A DNA stretch of 64,000 bases from a virus: positions 62,001 to 126,000 of IMG/VR virus record IMGVR_UViG_3300047157_000105; one strand, 5' to 3'. Below the pieces are notes generated by a model that was given only the letters and a program-made list of their open reading frames with translations, was not told the origin of the DNA and made no database searches. This document shows, piece after piece, positions 1,626 through 22,328 of the stretch. How positions within the stretch are numbered: position 1 is the first letter of the stretch; every line of letters begins with the position of its first letter. Both the position numbers and the translations under genes were made by a program.

Positions 1626-1685
1626 ATGAGTAAATTAGACTACGTAATATTAAAACTCGGAGACTTATGTCAGCAGATTGGGTAA
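1626..1685 (+). CDS. possible 19-residue leader ORF overlapping the MazG start
   Basis: ATG lies about 8 bp after the TACAAT box, so it would be at the 5' end of the transcript. The ORF (MSKLDYVILKLGDLCQQIG) runs through the GGAG ribosome-binding site of the MazG gene and ends 19 bp inside it. It could be a leaderless coupling peptide or chance. There is no other support. Confidence 0.25.
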   Translation: MSKLDYVILKLGDLCQQIG

Positions 1686-2326
1686 ACGATATTAATCGTA
1701 TGCATAACAAATATGGTGTACGTGATTGGATAAATCATGCCACACCATTTCAATTAAAGAAGTTCTTAGAATTTCGTTTAGACTTTATCAAAGAAGAGTA
1801 TGATGAAACACGTGAAGCATTAATTATGGAAGATAGTGAAGAGATCGTAGATGGTCTTATCGACTTATGTGTTGTAGCTATCGGTACATTAGATGCTATG
1901 GGTATTAATGCTCATAAAGCATGGGATGAAGTATATCAAGCAAACATGGCAAAAGAAGTTGGTGTAAAAGAATCACGTCCAAATCCATTAGGTTTACCAG
2001 ATCTAATTAAGCCAGAAGGTTGGACAGCACCTGTACACTTTCCTAATTATGGTATATTAGAATCAGCATGGAGTGATGAAATTACCAAGAGAGCCATGGC
2101 AGCGAATGCTGCAAGAACAGAATTAGTAGGTGAAAATCCAGAGATTAATTCTCAATGGACACCAGATGCAGAAAAGCGTATGGATATTATTGGTCAAAAT
2201 GGTAATGATGGTTTGCATTATACACCTGGACCAGGACCATTAGATGGTACACAAGCAAAGATAGATTGGACTAAAGATTCGGAGTACATAAGATTATATG
2301 GCACAGCAGAAGATCCAAAAGTCTAA
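1667..2326 (+). CDS. MazG-like nucleotide pyrophosphohydrolase (219 aa)
   Basis: The N-terminal ~110 residues carry the all-alpha NTP pyrophosphohydrolase pattern: EEYDET, then EEIVDGLIDLCVVAIGTLDA, matching the ExxE...ExxD metal-binding helices of the MazG/PRA-PH superfamily. The family hydrolyses NTP or dNTP to the monophosphate and PPi. Phage members are thought to adjust nucleotide pools or alarmones. The C-terminal ~100 residues are Pro/Gly-rich and not recognised. ATG follows CGGAGACTT. It is the first full gene after polymerase and sits under a TATGTAC-class promoter. The substrate cannot be told from sequence. Confidence 0.75.
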   Translation: MSADWVNDINRMHNKYGVRDWINHATPFQLKKFLEFRLDFIKEEYDETREALIMEDSEEIVDGLIDLCVVAIGTLDAMGINAHKAWDEVYQANMAKEVGVKESRPNPLGLPDLIKPEGWTAPVHFPNYGILESAWSDEITKRAMAANAARTELVGENPEINSQWTPDAEKRMDIIGQNGNDGLHYTPGPGPLDGTQAKIDWTKDSEYIRLYGTAEDPKV

Positions 2327-3803: not shown

Positions 3804-3818
3804 AGTGTGGTATAATAT
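3786..3818 (+). promoter_or_regulatory. TATGTAC-class promoter for the modification cassette
   Basis: TATGTACTT at 3786-3794 (inside the end of the upstream gene) and TGG-TATAAT at 3808-3816. The next ATG is 3843 behind CGAGGAGTAAAC. It would drive the five overlapping genes up to 7697. Confidence 0.75.
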
Positions 3819-3842
3819 ACACATATCAATCGAGGAGTAAAC

Positions 3843-4181
3843 ATGCAAAAAGAATCAATCATAGTTCTGCAAGAATGTGCAGAGCTTCAATCTAAAAAGT
3901 CAGAAGACTATCAAAACCCAAATTCACAAGTAAAACAAGCAATGCATTATCGTCGCGGTGTCGATTCTATTCATGACACTATGCACGGCAAAATGCTTCG
4001 TGCTCAGTCTTTACTTGAATCCGGTCAAGCTAATAACTTTGAATCACTCGAAGACACATACAAAGATCTTATTAACTATGCATCATTTGCTGTAGCTTAT
4101 ATTCGTGGCAAGATGGAAGGTCAAGATCCTTCACTAGATTACTTAAACAATCCTAAATCAAATGTTGATACGTCCGTATAA
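3843..4181 (+). CDS. DUF1599/Nmad1-like protein (nucleotide-modification-associated), 112 aa
   Basis: Pattern KKSEDYQNP, then DTMHGKMLRAQSLLE, then ESLEDTYKDLINYASFA. It matches the DUF1599 layout: a DY near the N-terminus, a KxxR helix, and a D..DL.NYA helix. This family is known as nucleotide modification associated domain 1 and often lies beside phage base-modifying enzymes. It is the first gene of the cassette, and its end overlaps the hydroxymethylase gene by 20 bp. Biochemical role unknown; a small-molecule or nucleotide-binding helper is plausible. Confidence 0.6.
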   Translation: MQKESIIVLQECAELQSKKSEDYQNPNSQVKQAMHYRRGVDSIHDTMHGKMLRAQSLLESGQANNFESLEDTYKDLINYASFAVAYIRGKMEGQDPSLDYLNNPKSNVDTSV

Positions 4182-4851
4182 AGTCACTGACGTTCGTGAC
4201 TACTTCATTGGTGCCAAGCAAGGTGGTGGCTACGGTCAGACTATAGATAAGACTGGTGTAAAGTGTATTGAATTAATCGGTGCATCATTTCTAGCAGATG
4301 AACCTGCAATATTTGGTACACCTAATGATGAATATATTAAAAAAGAAATCGACTGGTATAAATCACAGTCAAGAAACATTAATGACATATATGGAATAGG
4401 TTCTATGCCACCAGCAGCATGGCAATATGCAGCAAACAAAGATGGTATGATTAATTCTAATTATGGTTATCTAATATGGTCAAGTGATAATGGCAATCAA
4501 TATGATAAGTGTTTAGCTGAATTAAAATCTAATCCTAATTCACGTAGAGCTCTTATGATTTATAATAGACCGGAGATATGGGATGAGTATAATCTTGAAG
4601 GTATGTCAGATTTTATATGTACTAATTCAGTAGCTTACTATATTCGTAATGATGAATTACATTGTTCAGTCTCCATGAGATCTAACGATGTCGTATATGG
4701 ATATAAGAATGATTACGCATGGCAACAATATGTACTAAATGAATTAGCTAATGATTTGAATATTGAACCGGGTAATATGATATGGCAAGTACAAAACTTG
4801 CATGTCTATGAAAAACATTTTGATTTAGTTAAACCAAAGAGATATGCCTAA
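4162..4851 (+). CDS. deoxycytidylate hydroxymethylase-like enzyme (thymidylate synthase family), 229 aa
   Basis: Thymidylate-synthase fold. The segment from catalytic Cys153 (DFICTNSVAYYIR) to SMRSNDVVYGYKNDYAWQQY aligns without gaps to E. coli ThyA C146-N177: Cys153 is the nucleophile and Arg173-Ser174 the phosphate site. Asp184 sits where ThyA has Asn177. In this family Asn there selects dUMP, and Asp (as in T4 gp42) selects dCMP. It should therefore add a one-carbon group, probably hydroxymethyl, to C5 of dCMP using methylene-tetrahydrofolate. A dCMP methylase is the alternative. It overlaps both neighbours, so it is co-translated with the cassette. Confidence 0.8.
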   Translation: MLIRPYKVTDVRDYFIGAKQGGGYGQTIDKTGVKCIELIGASFLADEPAIFGTPNDEYIKKEIDWYKSQSRNINDIYGIGSMPPAAWQYAANKDGMINSNYGYLIWSSDNGNQYDKCLAELKSNPNSRRALMIYNRPEIWDEYNLEGMSDFICTNSVAYYIRNDELHCSVSMRSNDVVYGYKNDYAWQQYVLNELANDLNIEPGNMIWQVQNLHVYEKHFDLVKPKRYA

Positions 4852-5881
4852 ACAGTGGTTAAATGAAGAAGCACTTGATGTGCTAGTTAATTATTACTAT
4901 CCTAAAGCTGGATGGTTACAAGACAATGTCAATTGGGGAACACTTGATTACGAGGGTCCAGAAGCAAATGAGATTATTAATGATCCTTTACTCCAGAAGA
5001 TAGACATCTATGATTGTAAACATAGAGCAGCCGCTGGTTTCTCTAATGTATTACAAGACTTACGGTTTGGTTCAAAGACTCCTAAATGGAGATGGCAAAA
5101 CGAAAGACGTAGAGAGATTAATACTTGGAATGATCAAATCACATGGGGAGTATCCACATGGCTTTTTGTTATGATGTGTCACCGTATTACAGGTTCGGGT
5201 GCATCATTTGAGAATGACCACGGATACCGTAACAATATTATACAGTATTGGGGTACACAGTTTGGTAAGGACGGTGTACATCAGATGTGTGAAGATCTGG
5301 TAAAAAGAAAAGAGGAAGGACCAATATTTACTTCTATTGGTAACCAACCACCTGCTCCAAAGAAGGGCACGAGCAATGTAGACTTTATGACAAAAGAACT
5401 ACCACCACTAATTTATAAATTTACCGATTGGTTATTATATGAAAAGATAGACGGTAAAGAAATGAAGACACATAAACAAATTGTTGATTATTTAAATGAA
5501 TATAATAAATCAGCAGGACATAGAAAGTTTAACTTCCAATATGCAGCATTCTCTATGGATTGCTCAGACTATTTTCCTGAAGCAGTAGATAAAGATTCAC
5601 ATACATACTTAGGCAACAACGCTGTTCGTTGTTTAAAGAAGTTATCATCTGGATATAGTCATGATGAGTTCATGAATATATTAAGAGAACGTACAGGCGG
5701 AAGACCAAAAGATCTTGAAGATGTTATGTGTGACTTTGTAAGGTTTGGTCAGAATTATGTACCAAGAGGTAACGGCACATTTGACCATATTCCTAGCACT
5801 ATAACTAATAACAGCGGATGGGTATCTGGTTGGAAGCAAAGACAAGGTACACCACCACAAACTAATACACTACCAATATAA
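4844..5881 (+). CDS. aGPT-Pplase / 5-hmdU DNA kinase-type helical domain protein (tentative), 345 aa
   Basis: Central region WRWQNERRREIN, then HRITGSGASFENDHGYRN. The TGSG-x-x-F/Y ... HGYRN pattern resembles the helical domain that Iyer and colleagues called alpha-glutamyl/putrescinyl-thymine pyrophosphorylase, some members of which were later shown to be 5-hydroxymethyl-dU DNA kinases. Such proteins act on hydroxymethylated bases in DNA. Here it overlaps the dCMP-type hydroxymethylase by 8 bp and is followed at once by a PLP enzyme gene, as in hypermodification clusters. I assign the family from remembered motifs, so this is moderate; the C-terminal ~150 residues are unassigned. Confidence 0.45.
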   Translation: MPKQWLNEEALDVLVNYYYPKAGWLQDNVNWGTLDYEGPEANEIINDPLLQKIDIYDCKHRAAAGFSNVLQDLRFGSKTPKWRWQNERRREINTWNDQITWGVSTWLFVMMCHRITGSGASFENDHGYRNNIIQYWGTQFGKDGVHQMCEDLVKRKEEGPIFTSIGNQPPAPKKGTSNVDFMTKELPPLIYKFTDWLLYEKIDGKEMKTHKQIVDYLNEYNKSAGHRKFNFQYAAFSMDCSDYFPEAVDKDSHTYLGNNAVRCLKKLSSGYSHDEFMNILRERTGGRPKDLEDVMCDFVRFGQNYVPRGNGTFDHIPSTITNNSGWVSGWKQRQGTPPQTNTLPI

Positions 5882-6756
5882 TGCCACACAATAAACATGT
5901 AGAAGATGGGTTCAATATCGATGTCGGTATGATGCAACCTGATGAAGCAAAGAATTATTATTTAGATCTTGCAGGTGATTGGGAAGATCCTAATCCAGCT
6001 CCACGTATTGTTGAGCATGAAGGTATTCGAGTTGTAAGAGATGATGACTTAGTTGGATCGAAGGTCCGAGGTGGTGATTGTTTAATATCAAGTATTAAAG
6101 AAGATACTATTGTGTATGTGCAACCAAGGACTGGTTTAGCTGGTGTAAGTATATTAGATGTAGCAAAGAGACATAATAAAGCTGTAAGATTATTTATGCC
6201 ATCATCTAAAAAGATCTCACATCACCAAGCATGTTGCATAGAACAAGGAGCAGAAGCATCCTTCCATCGTATTGCAGCTATGCCTAATCTAAATAAGATA
6301 GCAAAAGACTGGGCTGATCAGAATCCAAATGCATTCTTTGTGCCATTAGGACTGAAACATAAATTAGTCACCGCTGGAATGGTGAAGGTTGCTAGTAAGA
6401 TTAAAGAGCCTGAACTGGTGTATGTTGCTACTTCGACAGGTGTACTTACAAGATCTCTACAGATTGCTTGGCCTAATGCCGAGTTTGTCTCTGTTGCTGT
6501 AAGTAGAAACATGAAGGCTGGTGAATTAGGTAGAGCAAAGGTTATATCTGAGCCACGGGCTTTCACGGCTCATGAGAGTAAAGAGAACTTACCACCATTT
6601 CCAAACATAGATACTTACGATGGTAAGGTATGGAAATATATTCCTAAACATTCTGGTAAAGATATATTATTTTGGAATGTAGGTAAAGAACCAGAATTAC
6701 ACGATGATACAATATATGAAACTGAAAGCTATAGAGATTGGGATAAGAACTTATGA
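5881..6756 (+). CDS. fold-type II PLP-dependent enzyme (ACC deaminase/cysteine desulfhydrase-like), 291 aa
   Basis: VVRDDDLVGSKVRGG (residues ~51-65) matches the KRDDL..GNK-x-R signature of the ACC deaminase/D-cysteine desulfhydrase branch, with Lys61 as likely Schiff-base lysine. It is followed by a TGLAGVSILDVAKRHN phosphate/helix region, LFMPSSKK and a GAEA strand, as in tryptophan synthase beta-like folds. ATSTGVLTRSL is the probable glycine-rich cofactor loop. The reaction is unknown; in the cassette it could attach or rework an amino-acid-derived group on an activated base. Start and previous stop share a base (TAATG). Confidence 0.6.
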   Translation: MPHNKHVEDGFNIDVGMMQPDEAKNYYLDLAGDWEDPNPAPRIVEHEGIRVVRDDDLVGSKVRGGDCLISSIKEDTIVYVQPRTGLAGVSILDVAKRHNKAVRLFMPSSKKISHHQACCIEQGAEASFHRIAAMPNLNKIAKDWADQNPNAFFVPLGLKHKLVTAGMVKVASKIKEPELVYVATSTGVLTRSLQIAWPNAEFVSVAVSRNMKAGELGRAKVISEPRAFTAHESKENLPPFPNIDTYDGKVWKYIPKHSGKDILFWNVGKEPELHDDTIYETESYRDWDKNL

Positions 6757-7697
6757 TTACAGGAACATTTAATAAAATACCACGTAAGAAGAATAGTCAT
6801 GGATATGGCTGGGCCAGAACATGGGCAGAGAATCTTATGACAACAATTAACCATGAGGGAGATCCTGTTGAGATATTATACTTAGACCATGGCGTAAACT
6901 TTGGCGGTGGTTTAAATCTATTTGGTGGATTCGATGATAAATTAAAACGAAGAGTAGATAATTTTTTATTAGCTGATAAAGTCTATTCACTTGATATGCC
7001 TATGCCAAGGTATGGTGATATGCTAGCCAAGAGAAAAGATGTGACTGACAAAGAATGGTGTGCTCGTGTTCAAGCTAAATGCGATGGTGCACAAACACTA
7101 CTATCTACAGATCTTGACACAACATGGTTAACCATTGGTGATTCTCATACGGCAGCATTTGCTCCACACGATAGCATGGTCATTAAGACAAATGGTCTTA
7201 CACTCAATGGACAAATTCAATCTAACTTCCAATATGTTCGTGACCATATGGCTAAATGCAATAACTTACAAGGTATCACACTCAGCTTTGGCAATATAGA
7301 TGTAAGACATCACTTATGCAGATTAGGTATTGATCCAAGAGATATGTGGATTAAATTAAAAAGGTTTGGTGATAGCTTGCCAATACCAGTAGAATATTCT
7401 GTACCTTGGCCTATAGAGTTTGAAGGTAGAAGATTACCAAAGACTGGTTATTATAAGAACCAACCATTTTGGGGTACACACTTTGAAAGATCACAAATGC
7501 TTGAAAGAATTCTTGAGACCATGGATATGGTGAGCATGAATAAAGTTATGTATCCGGAAGAGTGGTTAAAGCTTGATCCACAAGATTTTGCAAAGAGAAA
7601 AATGGAAGGCACAAGCTCAGTACATATATCACCAGAAGTTTACAGACGAAAAGAATTTGGTGAAGAGTATGTACTTTTAACAGATTTCATGATATAA
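6753..7697 (+). CDS. SGNH-hydrolase-like protein closing the cassette, 314 aa
   Basis: Motifs: LTIGDSHTAAF (block I GDS, residues 129-132), SFGNIDVRHH (GNID at 180-183, like the block III GxND) and a late SSVHIS that could supply the catalytic His. The N-terminal ~120 residues (ILYLDHGVNFGGG, FGGFDD) are a separate unrecognised part. SGNH enzymes cleave esters or transfer acyl groups; here the substrate could be a modified nucleotide or base side chain. ATGA overlap with the PLP gene and a promoter inside its end show it is the last gene of the unit. Confidence 0.5.
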   Translation: MITGTFNKIPRKKNSHGYGWARTWAENLMTTINHEGDPVEILYLDHGVNFGGGLNLFGGFDDKLKRRVDNFLLADKVYSLDMPMPRYGDMLAKRKDVTDKEWCARVQAKCDGAQTLLSTDLDTTWLTIGDSHTAAFAPHDSMVIKTNGLTLNGQIQSNFQYVRDHMAKCNNLQGITLSFGNIDVRHHLCRLGIDPRDMWIKLKRFGDSLPIPVEYSVPWPIEFEGRRLPKTGYYKNQPFWGTHFERSQMLERILETMDMVSMNKVMYPEEWLKLDPQDFAKRKMEGTSSVHISPEVYRRKEFGEEYVLLTDFMI

Positions 7698-7700
7698 TGT
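7668..7700 (+). promoter_or_regulatory. TATGTAC-class promoter for uvsX-41
   Basis: TATGTACTT at 7668-7676 and TGA-TATAAT at 7690-7698. Downstream is a GAGGAGAACT site and uvsX. Confidence 0.75.
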
Positions 7701-7742
7701 ACACATCAAATTAACTATTAGAGGAGAACTATTATCGGTATA

Positions 7743-8786
7743 ATGGATAAATTAGCGAAGAACTCTCGTATCAAAGAGTCTTCCCAACTTGACAAAAGCA
7801 AGTTGTTTAGTAATAAGGACATGGTGACTACACCTGTTCCAATGATTAACGTTGCACTATCAGGTGATCCAGACGGAGGTCTGAGTTCTGGTTTAACAGT
7901 ATTAGCTGGACCATCGAAGCATTTTAAGACTTCTTTTGGCTTGTTAATGGCAGCAGCTTACTTAGATAAGTATGAAGACGCTGTACTGTTGTTTTATGAT
8001 TCAGAGTTTGGTAGCCCGCAACAATATTTTAAGTCGTTCGGTATTGATACTTCCCGCGTACTACATAGTCCCATTACTAATGTAGAAGAGCTGAAGTTTG
8101 ACCTAATTTCTCAGCTCGAGAATATCGAACGCGACGACAAAGTCATTATTATGATTGACTCTGTCGGTAACCTAGCTTCAAAGAAAGAGCTAGAAGATGC
8201 TATGAATGAAAAGTCAGTAGCAGATATGTCGAGAGCAAAAGCTCTCAAAGGTCTATTTAGAATGACAACACCCTACCTAACAATGAGAGATATTCCATTG
8301 ATAGCAATAAACCATACATATCAAGAAATAGGCTTATTTCCGAAGGCGGTCGTATCAGGTGGTACAGGTATTTACTACTCCTCAGATAATATCTGGATCA
8401 TTGGCCGCCAGCAGGAAAAGAAGGGAACAGAAATTACAGGATATAACTTTGTCATTAATGTAGAGAAATCAAGGTTTGTCCGTGAGAAGTCTAAGATTCC
8501 TATTAATGTTACATGGGAAGGTGGTATCGAATCGTATTCAGGTTTATTAGATGTAGCAATAGAAGGTGGATATGTAGTTAAACCATCTAATGGTTGGTAC
8601 TCAAAGGTTGACCGATCTACTGGAGAAGTAGAAGATAAAAAGGTTCGTATTGCACAAACACTTGAAGCAGAGTTTTGGCAAGACATTTTTGCAAAGTCAG
8701 ACTTTAAAGATTATCTTAAAAACAAATATGAAGTTGGTCATGCTGAAATGATTAAACAAGATAACCCTGAGGACTTGGATATTTAA
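7743..8786 (+). CDS. uvsX: UvsX RecA-like recombinase
   Basis: 347 residues. Walker A AGPSKHFKTSF (residues ~55-65) has the T4 UvsX form, and Walker B lies in VIIMIDSVG. The RecA-family core continues through PLIAINHTY (L2 region). It forms filaments on gp32-coated ssDNA and drives strand exchange in recombination-dependent replication. It overlaps gene 41 by one base (TAATG), keeping recombinase and helicase in one unit. An ATG a few codons in cannot be excluded, but the annotated one fits family length. Confidence 0.93.
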   Translation: MDKLAKNSRIKESSQLDKSKLFSNKDMVTTPVPMINVALSGDPDGGLSSGLTVLAGPSKHFKTSFGLLMAAAYLDKYEDAVLLFYDSEFGSPQQYFKSFGIDTSRVLHSPITNVEELKFDLISQLENIERDDKVIIMIDSVGNLASKKELEDAMNEKSVADMSRAKALKGLFRMTTPYLTMRDIPLIAINHTYQEIGLFPKAVVSGGTGIYYSSDNIWIIGRQQEKKGTEITGYNFVINVEKSRFVREKSKIPINVTWEGGIESYSGLLDVAIEGGYVVKPSNGWYSKVDRSTGEVEDKKVRIAQTLEAEFWQDIFAKSDFKDYLKNKYEVGHAEMIKQDNPEDLDI

Positions 8787-10147
8787 TGCAGATCGAAACA
8801 TTAATCTTACGCAACTTAATGCTTAATGAGGATTATACCAGAACGGTTATTCCTCATTTAAAAACTATATACTTTGAAGATCCATATAGATCGGTATTTA
8901 ACGAGATTGTTGGATTTGTCAATAAGTTTAATAAGCTACCAAGTTCTGATGCACTCAGTATAGAACTAAGGAATAATCCTAAGATCACATCAGATTCTCT
9001 TGCACTTATACCTGAATTGAGTAAACAAGAAACAGAACAAACTCAGGAATGGTTAATCGAAAAGACAGAGAAGTGGTGTCAAGACCGAGCAATCTATTTA
9101 GCAATCATGGATTCAATTAATATTATTGAAGGTAAGCATGATACATTAGATAAGAATGCATTGCCATCTGTATTGAGTGAAGCATTAGGTGTTAACTTTG
9201 ATATGAGGGTTGGTCACGATTATGTTGATGACTCTGATGGACGTTTTGATTTCTATCACAGGCAAGAAGAACACCTACCATTTGACTTAGAAAAGTTTAA
9301 CACAATCACCAAAGGTGGTCTCGTCAAGAAATCTCTTAATGTTGCTTTGGCTGGTACAGGTGTAGGTAAGTCTTTATTTATGTGTCATGTTGCCGCTGGT
9401 GCTTTAACACAGATGAAAAATGTGTTATATATAACTATGGAAATGGCAGAAGAAAGAATAGCTGAACGTATTGATGCTAACCTTATGAATGTGCCTATTG
9501 ACCAGTTAGAGAATCTAAGTAAGGATATGTTTGATAAGAAGATGCATAAGCTTACTGACAAAGGTGTTGGTAAACTTATTGTAAAAGAATATCCTACAGG
9601 AGCTGCAAGTTCTATACACTTTAGAGCATTGCTAAAAGAATTACAGATCAAACGTGACTTCACTCCTGATCTTATTTGTATAGACTATCTAAATATATGT
9701 GCCTCATCAAGAATGAAATCTATGGGTGGTGCAATCAATTCATATATTATGGTGAAAGCAATTGCAGAAGAATTGCGTGGTTTGGCAGTAGAGTATAACT
9801 TACCTATTGTCACGGCCACACAAACAACTCGTTCAGGTTTTGCATCATCTGATGTAGGACTAGAAGATACAAGTGAATCATTTGGTTTACCGGCTACGGC
9901 AGATCTTATGTTTGCACTTATATCTACTGAAGAACTTGAAGCTATGAATCAAATCATGGTAAAACAATTAAAGAATAGGTATAATGATCCTACAGGTGGA
10001 AACAAGAAGTTTGTACTTGGTATTGACAGGGCTAAGATGAGACTGTATGATGTAGAGGATACGGCCCAAACTCTAAATGTAAGAGATGAGCCAGTTAAAG
10101 TTGCACCTAGATATGACACAATAGGGGAGGGATTTACAATTGAGTAG
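8786..10147 (+). CDS. 41: gp41 replicative DNA helicase (DnaB family)
   Basis: 453 residues, near the usual length of T4 gp41. Walker A AGTGVGKSLF at residues ~189-198, Walker B LICIDYLNI, and a C-terminal DnaB-type region ending in the NRYNDPTGGNKKFVLGID arginine-rich strand. The N-terminal ~150 residues form the primase/loader interaction domain. It unwinds the lagging-strand template as a hexamer and would work with the gp59-like loader encoded at 31,399. Its end overlaps the deaminase start by 8 bp. Confidence 0.93.
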   Translation: MQIETLILRNLMLNEDYTRTVIPHLKTIYFEDPYRSVFNEIVGFVNKFNKLPSSDALSIELRNNPKITSDSLALIPELSKQETEQTQEWLIEKTEKWCQDRAIYLAIMDSINIIEGKHDTLDKNALPSVLSEALGVNFDMRVGHDYVDDSDGRFDFYHRQEEHLPFDLEKFNTITKGGLVKKSLNVALAGTGVGKSLFMCHVAAGALTQMKNVLYITMEMAEERIAERIDANLMNVPIDQLENLSKDMFDKKMHKLTDKGVGKLIVKEYPTGAASSIHFRALLKELQIKRDFTPDLICIDYLNICASSRMKSMGGAINSYIMVKAIAEELRGLAVEYNLPIVTATQTTRSGFASSDVGLEDTSESFGLPATADLMFALISTEELEAMNQIMVKQLKNRYNDPTGGNKKFVLGIDRAKMRLYDVEDTAQTLNVRDEPVKVAPRYDTIGEGFTIE

Positions 10148-10601
10148 ATTACACGGTAAGGCATGGGGTGATAGATATATCCATTTAGCAAAAGAAATAT
10201 CTACATGGTCGAAGGACCCAAGCACACAAGTTGGTGCTGTAGTGATTGGACAAAATGGTGAAGTATTATCACAAGGATATAATGGTTTCCCAAGAAGTAT
10301 TAAAGATACACCTCAACGATTAAAAGATCGTGAAAAAAAGTACAATTTAGTTGTACATGCAGAGATGAATGCTATATATAATGCTAGTTTAAATGGTGTT
10401 TCTTTAAAAGGATCAACATTATACGTTTATGGTTTGCCTATTTGTAATGAATGTGCTAAAGGTGTTATTCAAGTTGGTATAGACAGAGTTATTGCAACTC
10501 GTCCAGCTGATTACAATAAAGAATGGGACGAATCAATAAAAGATGCCAAAGCTTTATTTAAAGAAGCTGAGGTTGAATATAAAATAGAAGTGGAGAAATA
10601 A
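10140..10601 (+). CDS. cd: deoxycytidylate deaminase
   Basis: Zinc-dependent deaminase signature: VVHAEMNAI (His and catalytic Glu) and GLPICNECAKG (PxxC-x-x-C). 153 residues. It converts dCMP to dUMP, feeding dTTP synthesis. If the window's hydroxymethylase uses dCMP, the two enzymes would compete for one substrate. The start is TTG, supported by a strong GGGGAGGGA upstream and an 8-bp overlap with gene 41. The downstream gene follows almost directly. Confidence 0.9.
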   Translation: MSRLHGKAWGDRYIHLAKEISTWSKDPSTQVGAVVIGQNGEVLSQGYNGFPRSIKDTPQRLKDREKKYNLVVHAEMNAIYNASLNGVSLKGSTLYVYGLPICNECAKGVIQVGIDRVIATRPADYNKEWDESIKDAKALFKEAEVEYKIEVEK

Positions 10602-21707: not shown

Positions 21708-21721
21708 TAACATTCATTCAA

Positions 21722-21960
21722 TAATGAAGTGAGCTAGATAACGACGTAAAGGTAAAAGTAGGAGCACTTAACACGCGGGTTCAAATCCCGCCTCCTCCAC
21801 CAAATAGATCTAAAATAGATTTATTTAATGGGGGAGATTCGGCATCGATTAGGTAGCAGAGCCGCTTGAGACTCGTCAGTCAACGAAGACTTTAAAATGA
21901 AAAATTAATCGGCAATCAGTCAGATTATTTACTAGCCGCCTAATGGCTAGTTGAGGTTTT
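21722..21960 (+). ncRNA. ssrA: circularly permuted (two-piece) tmRNA
   Basis: Acceptor piece first: T-arm GCGGGTTCAAATCCCGC and CTCCTCC-ACCA ending at 21802. After a 27-base spacer comes the coding piece, starting GGGGGAG at 21830. CTCCTCC (21792-21798) pairs fully with GGGGGAG (21830-21836), with G-U as third pair, the alanine identity element of tmRNA. The tag frame 21911-21943 reads GNQSDYLLAA-stop, the same length as E. coli ANDENYALAA and sharing N2, Y6 and L8-A9-A10, with TTAATC just before the resume codon. The stop codon lies in the loop of hairpin ACTAGCC/GGCTAGT. The 5' edge of the acceptor piece is approximate. Confidence 0.9.
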
Positions 21961-21962
21961 CT

Positions 21963-22006
21963 TCCGGAGTTCCTTATCACCCAATACTCCGGATCTTCTT
22001 TTTTAT
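21963..22006 (+). terminator. intrinsic terminator after tmRNA
   Basis: Stem TCCGGAGT (21963-21970) / ACTCCGGA (21986-21993) with a 15-base loop, followed by a T-rich run to 22005. Confidence 0.7.
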
Positions 22007-22016
22007 ACATACACAT

Positions 22017-22328
22017 ATGATAACCTTAACAGACAACGCCGCTGATAAATTAAAGACTCTGGTTACTGGTAGTAAACAGTTAAGAGTATTAGTTAAAGGT
22101 ACAGGCTGTTCTGGTATGGCATATCATTTAGAGTATAACATAATGCAAACAGATATGGATGACTTGTTTATTGTAAAAGATATTCCTATCGTAATTGATA
22201 AAAAATCACAAGTTTATGTTGAAGGTGCTGAGATAGACCATAAGACAAAAGGATTAAATGAAGGCTTTGAGTTTTCTAATCCTAAGGAAAAAGCAAGGTG
22301 TGGATGTGGTGAATCCTTCACTATGTGA
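22017..22328 (+). CDS. A-type iron-sulfur carrier (IscA/HesB family), 103 aa
   Basis: The start at 22017 gives MITLTDNAADKLKTLV, the usual family N-terminus; an upstream extension would run into the terminator. Conserved cysteines: GTGCSGMAY and the C-terminal ARCGCGESF (CxC). Such proteins carry Fe-S clusters to target apoproteins. A phage copy could support host or phage Fe-S enzymes during infection. It sits between the tmRNA and another promoter. Acquisition from a host is likely but not shown by sequence alone. Confidence 0.88.
   Translation: MITLTDNAADKLKTLVTGSKQLRVLVKGTGCSGMAYHLEYNIMQTDMDDLFIVKDIPIVIDKKSQVYVEGAEIDHKTKGLNEGFEFSNPKEKARCGCGESFTM

Follow-up and report, generated by a model that had tools for sequence, protein, structure and literature searches.

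Cytosine hypermodification is already known from phages, in the form of glucosyl-5-hydroxymethylcytosine (5hmC) in T4, arabinosyl-5hmC in RB69, carbamoyl-5hmC, and 5-carboxymethylcytosine-glycine. Thymidine hypermodification (PhiW-14, SP10, M6, and ViI) employs a 5-hydroxymethyldeoxyuridine (5-hmdU) DNA kinase, an amino acid:DNA transferase (AADT) or aGPT-Pplase protein, and tailoring by enzymes dependent on pyridoxal phosphate (PLP). Here we describe a cassette of five genes, g1 to g5, that is probably a cytosine hypermodification system; it is carried by a marine T4-like phage, in a window of 64 000 nt corresponding to positions 62 001–126 000 of the 140.5-kb IMG/VR record IMGVR_UViG_3300047157_000105. 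The cassette shares with T4 glucosylation a gp42-type hydroxymethylase and the placement of modification genes in the 42–uvsX–41 stretch, whereas the slot here holds g3, g4, and g5, and the record has no T4-type beta-glucosyltransferase (BGT). As in the thymidine systems, a hydroxymethylase comes first and is accompanied by a PLP enzyme and a transferase with the AADT/HMUDK_hel fold, but the hydroxymethylase is of the dCMP type rather than the dUMP type, there is no kinase, g3 is unrecognizable by sequence, the PLP enzyme is of fold type II, and g5, with an SGNH fold, is extra. The 5hmC carbamoyltransferase found by MetaGPA (PMC8670742) is likewise a cytosine decoration gene linked to Asp-type thymidylate synthase (TS), MazG (PF01503), and dCMP deaminase; unlike that system, this record has no carbamoyltransferase. 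CmoA/CmoX/CmoY (PMC12783734) produce 5-carboxymethylcytosine-glycine through a C5-methyltransferase using carboxy-S-adenosylmethionine (Cx-SAM) and an amide ligase; an amino-acid-bearing 5-substituent on phage cytosine is what we propose here too, yet neither of those enzymes is in the cassette.

The preliminary description of the window reported five overlapping genes at 3843–7697, and all five open reading frames lie where it placed them (Table 1), with successive overlaps of 20, 8, 1, and 4 bp (given there as 1–20 bp) and 45 bp between g5 and uvsX. It also put one promoter ahead of the cassette. A −10-like element is indeed present at 3811, but we looked for a matching −35 box and found none, and a matching element also lies 5′ of uvsX; these are the only two sites in the window, 3811 and 7693, that match TATAATRTACACAT with zero mismatches. 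Calling the 3811 element a promoter is plausible, not demonstrated. The ratio of nonsynonymous to synonymous substitution rates (dN/dS) is ∼0.1 for g2–g5 in comparison with L041 (L### labels denote loci on the metagenomic contigs and phage genomes compared), indicating purifying selection.

Table 1. Features of the cassette and its surroundings (window coordinates)
Feature	Position	Strand	Evidence or remark
MazG/PRA-PH nucleotide pyrophosphohydrolase	1667..2326	+	PF01503, E = 6.1e-10
−10-like element TATAATATACACAT	3811..3824	+	5′ of cassette; zero-mismatch match to TATAATRTACACAT
g1, DUF1599/Nmad1 (MazG-like nucleotide-modification-associated domain), 112 aa	3843..4181	+	PF07659, E = 3.6e-7; phrog_18404
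g2, T4 gp42-type dCMP hydroxymethylase (predicted activity), 229 aa	4162..4851	+	thymidylate-synthase family, E = 2.4e-21; 1b49; Asp184
g3, AADT/HMUDK_hel (aGPT-Pplase) fold protein, likely base-modifying transferase, 345 aa	4844..5881	+	AlphaFold + Foldseek
g4, fold-type II PLP enzyme, 291 aa	5881..6756	+	phrog_7093 ("threonine dehydratase"), E = 8.4e-36; Schiff-base Lys61
g5, SGNH-fold protein, 314 aa	6753..7697	+	AlphaFold + PDB fold matches; GDSH, GxIDxRxH, C-terminal His
second −10-like element TATAATGTACACAT	7693..7706	+	5′ of uvsX, marks cassette 3′ end; zero mismatches to TATAATRTACACAT
uvsX recombinase	7743..8786	+	phrog_97, E = 6.5e-88
gp41-type replicative helicase	8786..10147	+	phrog_19, E = 4.2e-121
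dCMP deaminase	10140..10601	+	PF00383, E = 1.7e-19

The best solved relative of g2 is T4 dCMP hydroxymethylase (1b49, E = 1.8e-73), the next being TS (E = 3.3e-14). Its Asp184 occupies the pyrimidine-recognition position, where Asp is cytosine-specific, and is invariant in 54 of 54 relatives; the canonical TSs of related genomes (L340 and L329) have Asn there. The earlier call of a TS-family hydroxymethylase with a dCMP-type residue is thereby confirmed: g2 is by sequence a clear homologue of T4 gp42, predicted to act on dCMP, and the phage very probably makes 5hmC. In MetaGPA, Asp-type TS, MazG, and dCMP deaminase were tied to cytosine-modified environmental phage DNA, with PF01503 and TS-family genes occurring together on modified-cytosine contigs (PMC8670742), and the window has all three features. 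Among g3 loci (all locus counts are drawn from the best 80 matches of each scan), dCMP deaminase lies within 5 kb in 27 of 40, and in relatives is often inside the cassette. The MazG protein shares the hydrolase family phrog_18404 with g1, and may possibly serve to remove dCTP. As for g1 itself, the domain named in the preliminary description (DUF1599/Nmad1) is borne out, but its linkage to the cassette is loose: it is a less constant neighbor than g2–g5 are to one another, found within 5 kb in 16 of the 40 g3 loci.

Linkage within the remainder is tight. All of g2, g4, and g5 are present in each of the 29 non-identical g3 loci that have at least 4 kb of flank on each side. Two gene orders occur, 2-3-4-5 in the clade of the window and 2-(dCMP deaminase)-5-4-3 in the others, generally just 5′ of uvsX and gp41, and contigs of environmental phages that have the gene set number in the hundreds. 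The corresponding stretch of Karamvirus RZH (DNA polymerase–42–X–uvsX–41) carries two glucosyltransferases; the cassette thus occupies the T4-type slot for modification genes between 42 and uvsX–41, in the place of glucosyltransferases. No BGT (PF09198) was found in the 140.5-kb record, against 203 bits for the RZH positive control, and no carbamoyltransferase family gene; a search for alpha-glucosyltransferase (AGT, PF11440) that lacked a positive control gave no match anywhere, and that negative is not used. The cassette has no 5-hmdU-kinase-like P-loop gene, and the P-loop proteins of the record, judged by sequence, are only terminase-, helicase-, clamp-loader-, recombination-, and Zeta-toxin-like.

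The window's g3 protein has no match in Pfam, NCBIfam, or PHROG, and its relatives are encoded on 132 IMG/VR stretches. An AlphaFold model built on an alignment of 48 sequences from three subfamilies (pLDDT 87, pTM 0.87) was compared by Foldseek with the viral predictions of BFVD, where the top-ranked matches include an AADT domain protein (E = 1.2e-14, template modeling (TM) score 0.81) and two uncharacterized homologues. Every named match at ranks 2–9 is AADT, aGPT-Pplase1, or HMUDK_hel (the helical domain of 5-hmdU DNA kinase), the others being uncharacterized; lower matches to the same three families have TM scores of 0.42–0.52, followed by endonuclease III, and the remainder is noise. The PDB fold search gave weak similarity to HhH-GPD glycosylases and DUF2419 only. 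The predicted model thus supports membership of g3 in the AADT/aGPT-Pplase superfamily, at the fold level only. Some g3 loci encode a further protein of ∼320 aa, gene Z (L022:11035-11991, L025:10087-11040, L060:7202-8188, and L171:6177-7133), placed between g3 and g4 or ahead of g5. It has no Pfam match, but the better of its hhalign comparisons with g3 reach 69–93%, so that Z is a probable distant relative of g3, and probably a second transferase. In L060, a uracil-DNA-glycosylase-superfamily gene (6751-7215; PF03167, just under cut-off) lies in the cassette between g2 and Z.

For g5, the AlphaFold model (pLDDT 88) finds SGNH/GDSL esterases and acyltransferases as its high-probability PDB matches (probability up to 1.0, but with E > 0.001 and TM scores of ∼0.35–0.38). 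PF00657 matches weakly in 4 of 21 relatives, and conservation of the GDSH, GxIDxRxH, PxExxxR-type, and C-terminal His motifs extends to Aeromonas phages. Pfam detected neither the aGPT-Pplase call for g3 nor the SGNH call for g5 in the window proteins, and profiles of g3, g4, and g5 brought no useful match among solved structures. In keeping with the preliminary description, the fold searches led to base-modification-type and SGNH folds and to no unrelated virion family; a virion or structural role for g3 and g5 was rejected on this ground.

A direct role for g5 was also considered, as a divergent BGT-like enzyme or acyltransferase that itself conjugates a sugar, acyl group, or inositol to the hmC hydroxyl, with g3 and g4 tailoring later. 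We regard this as unlikely, though g5 does sit in the BGT stretch of T4-type phages, and its N-terminal ∼110 residues, in a diverse alignment, match T4-type BGT in hhalign at 63% (E = 7e-5), where valid control profiles reach at most 8.5% and reversed BGT 0.3%. An N-[LF]-[FY]-G-G motif is common to this N-terminus (window 6753-7100; also L254 and L258) and T4 BGT. However, the match falls to 16% once the two closest sequences are removed, two g5 proteins score ∼12–13 bits for PF09198, far under the 27 bits that Pfam requires, g5 does not conserve the residue that aligns with T4 BGT Asp100, and the top fold matches are SGNH, not GT-B. Kinship of g5 with T4 BGT is a weak lead from sequence comparison. 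The same role would fit Aeromonas phage 25 (L002:3767-7038), whose g5 homologue stands, in the absence of g3, beside genes for UDP-galactopyranose mutase and a glycosyltransferase-looking protein; galactofuranosyl decoration of hmC is possible there.

Lys61 of g4, the Schiff-base residue, lies in an RDDxxxGxKxR motif and is invariant in 13 diverse homologues together with R53, D55, and G59. PF00291 is absent in the window protein, weak in the relatives from L184 and L212, and over cut-off in an Erythrobacter phage relative. By its sequence, g4 is a fold-type II PLP enzyme, as previously described. It is missing from L185, L189, L191, L203, and L204; since these g3 phages keep g2, g5, and g3, g4 appears to be accessory. 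The homologues in which the four residues are invariant include proteins of Erythrobacter and Microcystis phages whose g4-type domain is joined to a DNA methylase or carries that annotation. The fusion in Erythrobacter phage R6L (L003:6900-9238) is to an N6/N4 DNA methylase, and in a Microcystis phage (L004:7992-8702) the domain lies beside two ParB-like genes; here this family of PLP enzymes has a different use linked to DNA.

Sister loci combine g5 with other partners. In L183 and L200, the gene adjoining g5 encodes a PF18723 (HMUDK_hel) protein over the Pfam cut-off, and four such g5 partners scored 36–45 bits against a cut-off of 25. Scanning with the L183/L200-type PF18723 protein yielded 36 non-identical loci with flanks, in which g5 (36/36) and inositol-1-phosphate synthase (Ino1, 36/36; identity confirmed by PF01658) are constant, a small HAD-like protein is nearly so (35/36; assigned on an FDIDGV-type motif alone, with no Pfam match), and the PLP enzyme never occurs (0/36). 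Conversely, no inositol synthase was found in the g3 loci. The hydroxymethylases found in records with these inositol-type cassettes, whether close to the cassette or not, are all Asp-type. Replacement of the PLP enzyme by Ino1 and the HAD-like protein suggests inositol as the nucleophile in these phages. Inositol-type cassettes are found in L248–L327 (e.g. L258:5244-10495, L296:3529-8047, and L325:2454-8497), sometimes with an FkbM methyltransferase or C5-cytosine methylase nearby.

Cultured Aeromonas phages, 44RR and 31 among them, encode g5 as one protein with an HMUDK_hel-like domain (19 records); the PF18723-like domain of the 44RR fusion scores under the Pfam cut-off. According to Petrov et al. 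2010 (PMC2993671), gene 42 is present in Aeromonas phages 44RR, 31, and 25 but a glucosyltransferase is not, and whether such phages modify hmC otherwise was then not known; we too find gp42 and no known glucosyltransferase in 44RR. The fusion protein of phage 44RR2.8t, ORF233c, is a candidate hmC-modifying protein, through which that question becomes testable. Both g3 and g4, present in the cassette, are missing from 44RR. Immediately upstream of its fusion gene is a gene for a sodium:solute symporter (L001:4399-8379), which is absent from the other phages tested and might import a DNA decoration.

In the best reading of these loci, the system is wider than the cassette: its constant pair is g5 plus either g3 or a PF18723 protein, with PLP or inositol genes as donor or tailoring modules. 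We tentatively propose a modular family for hypermodification of 5hmC-DNA in uncultured T4-like phages, in which a core of g5 and an AADT/HMUDK_hel-fold protein might replace the kinase-plus-transferase set, donors might be PLP enzymes (amino-acid-derived cytosine) or Ino1 plus the HAD-like phosphatase (inositol cytosine), and the fused core might be the missing hmC modification of 44RR and 31.

For the window, the pathway would begin with g2 converting dCMP to 5-hydroxymethyl-dCMP, which would be polymerized into DNA, a step with strong homology support; the MazG and DUF1599 proteins could plausibly hold plain dCTP low. We consider it likely that this gene set modifies the DNA further. Because the 5-hmdU DNA kinase 5-HMUDK phosphorylates hmU and not hmC (PMC6457204), a route through hmC needs another activator, for which g5 is the obvious candidate, as the constant partner in a cassette that has no such kinase. 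We lean toward g5 and g3 as the transfer pair, given their folds, the fusion, and their obligate pairing. On the same grounds, g5 would act on the 5-hydroxymethyl group in DNA, most likely as an enzyme of acyl or ester type that activates or condenses, in the position that the kinase has in thymine pathways; this role as activator is the least certain step, and we hold it to be possible but doubtful. From its fold, g3 would then link the cytosine, through its activated CH2, with a small nucleophile, and g4 would supply an amino-acid nucleophile or tailor the group once attached. The expected base would be an amino-acid-derived 5-substituted-methylcytosine, an identity that we advance tentatively. 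More generally, the exchangeable module (PLP; Ino1 plus HAD-like; perhaps a transporter) would provide or tailor the group that g5 and the transferase attach. By analogy with T4, the modification would make virion DNA resistant to host nucleases.

Several observations weigh against this pathway. The preliminary description had likened the helical domain of g3 to aGPT-Pplase and the hmdU DNA kinase, a likeness that holds for the fold but fails in every sequence and profile test: Pfam finds PF18723 in none of 28 g3 members, profile–profile comparison with PF18723 by hhalign stays below 2% with small and large profiles alike, and the g3 profile finds nothing in the reference phages M6, Vi01, and PhiW-14, in all of which PF18723 is detected. 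Sequence-level proof that g3 is a PF18723 protein was thus sought with single sequences, members, profiles, and the reference-phage scan, each time without success. Cultured phages gave no match to any of the three g3 subfamilies, nor to gene Z. The SGNH-like label given to g5 stands for the fold and the GDS motif, but g5 departs from SGNH enzymes in blocks III and V: the Asn of the former and the usual Asp of the latter's Asp-x-x-His are absent, with GxID and an SxxH-type motif in their stead and the His kept, so one should not presume simple esterase chemistry. Because its relatives occur alongside DNA methylases, g4 may not use free amino acids. Of the 36 inositol-type loci, just 13 have a hydroxymethylase within 5 kb, and none was found in two large records of this type that were searched. 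The 140.5-kb record is probably incomplete, so a kinase elsewhere in the genome is possible. Finally, the roles of g3, g4, and g5 are predictions, and we infer the final base and each reaction past hmC synthesis.

The gene set might instead act on free nucleotides or another component, such as RNA or a surface glycan, with g2 only making hmC and its neighbors being unrelated metabolic genes. Several relatives do have sugar-nucleotide and KdsA-like genes (by sequence) in the region, and SGNH and PLP folds are generic; yet an Asp-type hydroxymethylase accompanies g3 in 29 of 29 loci, g3 has the fold of known base-modification enzymes, the same content is kept in two gene orders, and the location is the glucosyltransferase slot, all of which make this improbable. 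Were the cassette to modify thymine, through a variant of the known pathway (dUMP hydroxymethylase, 5-hmdU kinase, amino acid transferase, and PLP tailoring), the g3 fold family and the PLP enzyme, both known from thymine-hypermodifying phages, would be accounted for; this reading was rejected as very improbable, since g2 resembles gp42 and has the Asp of cytosine enzymes (Asn in canonical TSs) and the cassette has no 5-hmdU-kinase-like gene.

Hypermodification of cytosine via 5hmC, as proposed in the preliminary description, has survived all tests made here at the level of the cassette, though the product base itself is still an extrapolation. That description also called the pathway new, which applies to the gene set and chemistry but not to modified cytosine as such. 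What is new is the gene set, the interchangeable donor modules, and a cytosine that would carry inositol or an amino-acid group, none of which we found described in the incomplete literature searched; no paper on inositol in phage DNA was found in that mostly open-access literature, so the inositol variant would be a base decoration without a description there. Known amino-acid-like additions via a hydroxymethyl base go through thymine and a 5-hmdU kinase inactive on hmC (PMC6457204); the present set suggests a parallel cytosine route with different activation chemistry. Together with its inositol-swapped relatives, the cassette suggests a means of masking viral DNA that is both widespread and unstudied, and new base-modifying enzymes would be useful for DNA labelling and sequencing.

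Two further features of the virus were noted. ARAGORN flags a tmRNA gene (tmRNA*) at 21710-22034 of the window, with the tag GNQSDYLLAA. Outside the window, in the same virus record (L223:11653-14215; genome 11.6–14.2 kb), genes for a class IV aminotransferase, an IMPDH-like protein, and an AMP-binding protein are clustered, and possibly represent a further small-molecule pathway.

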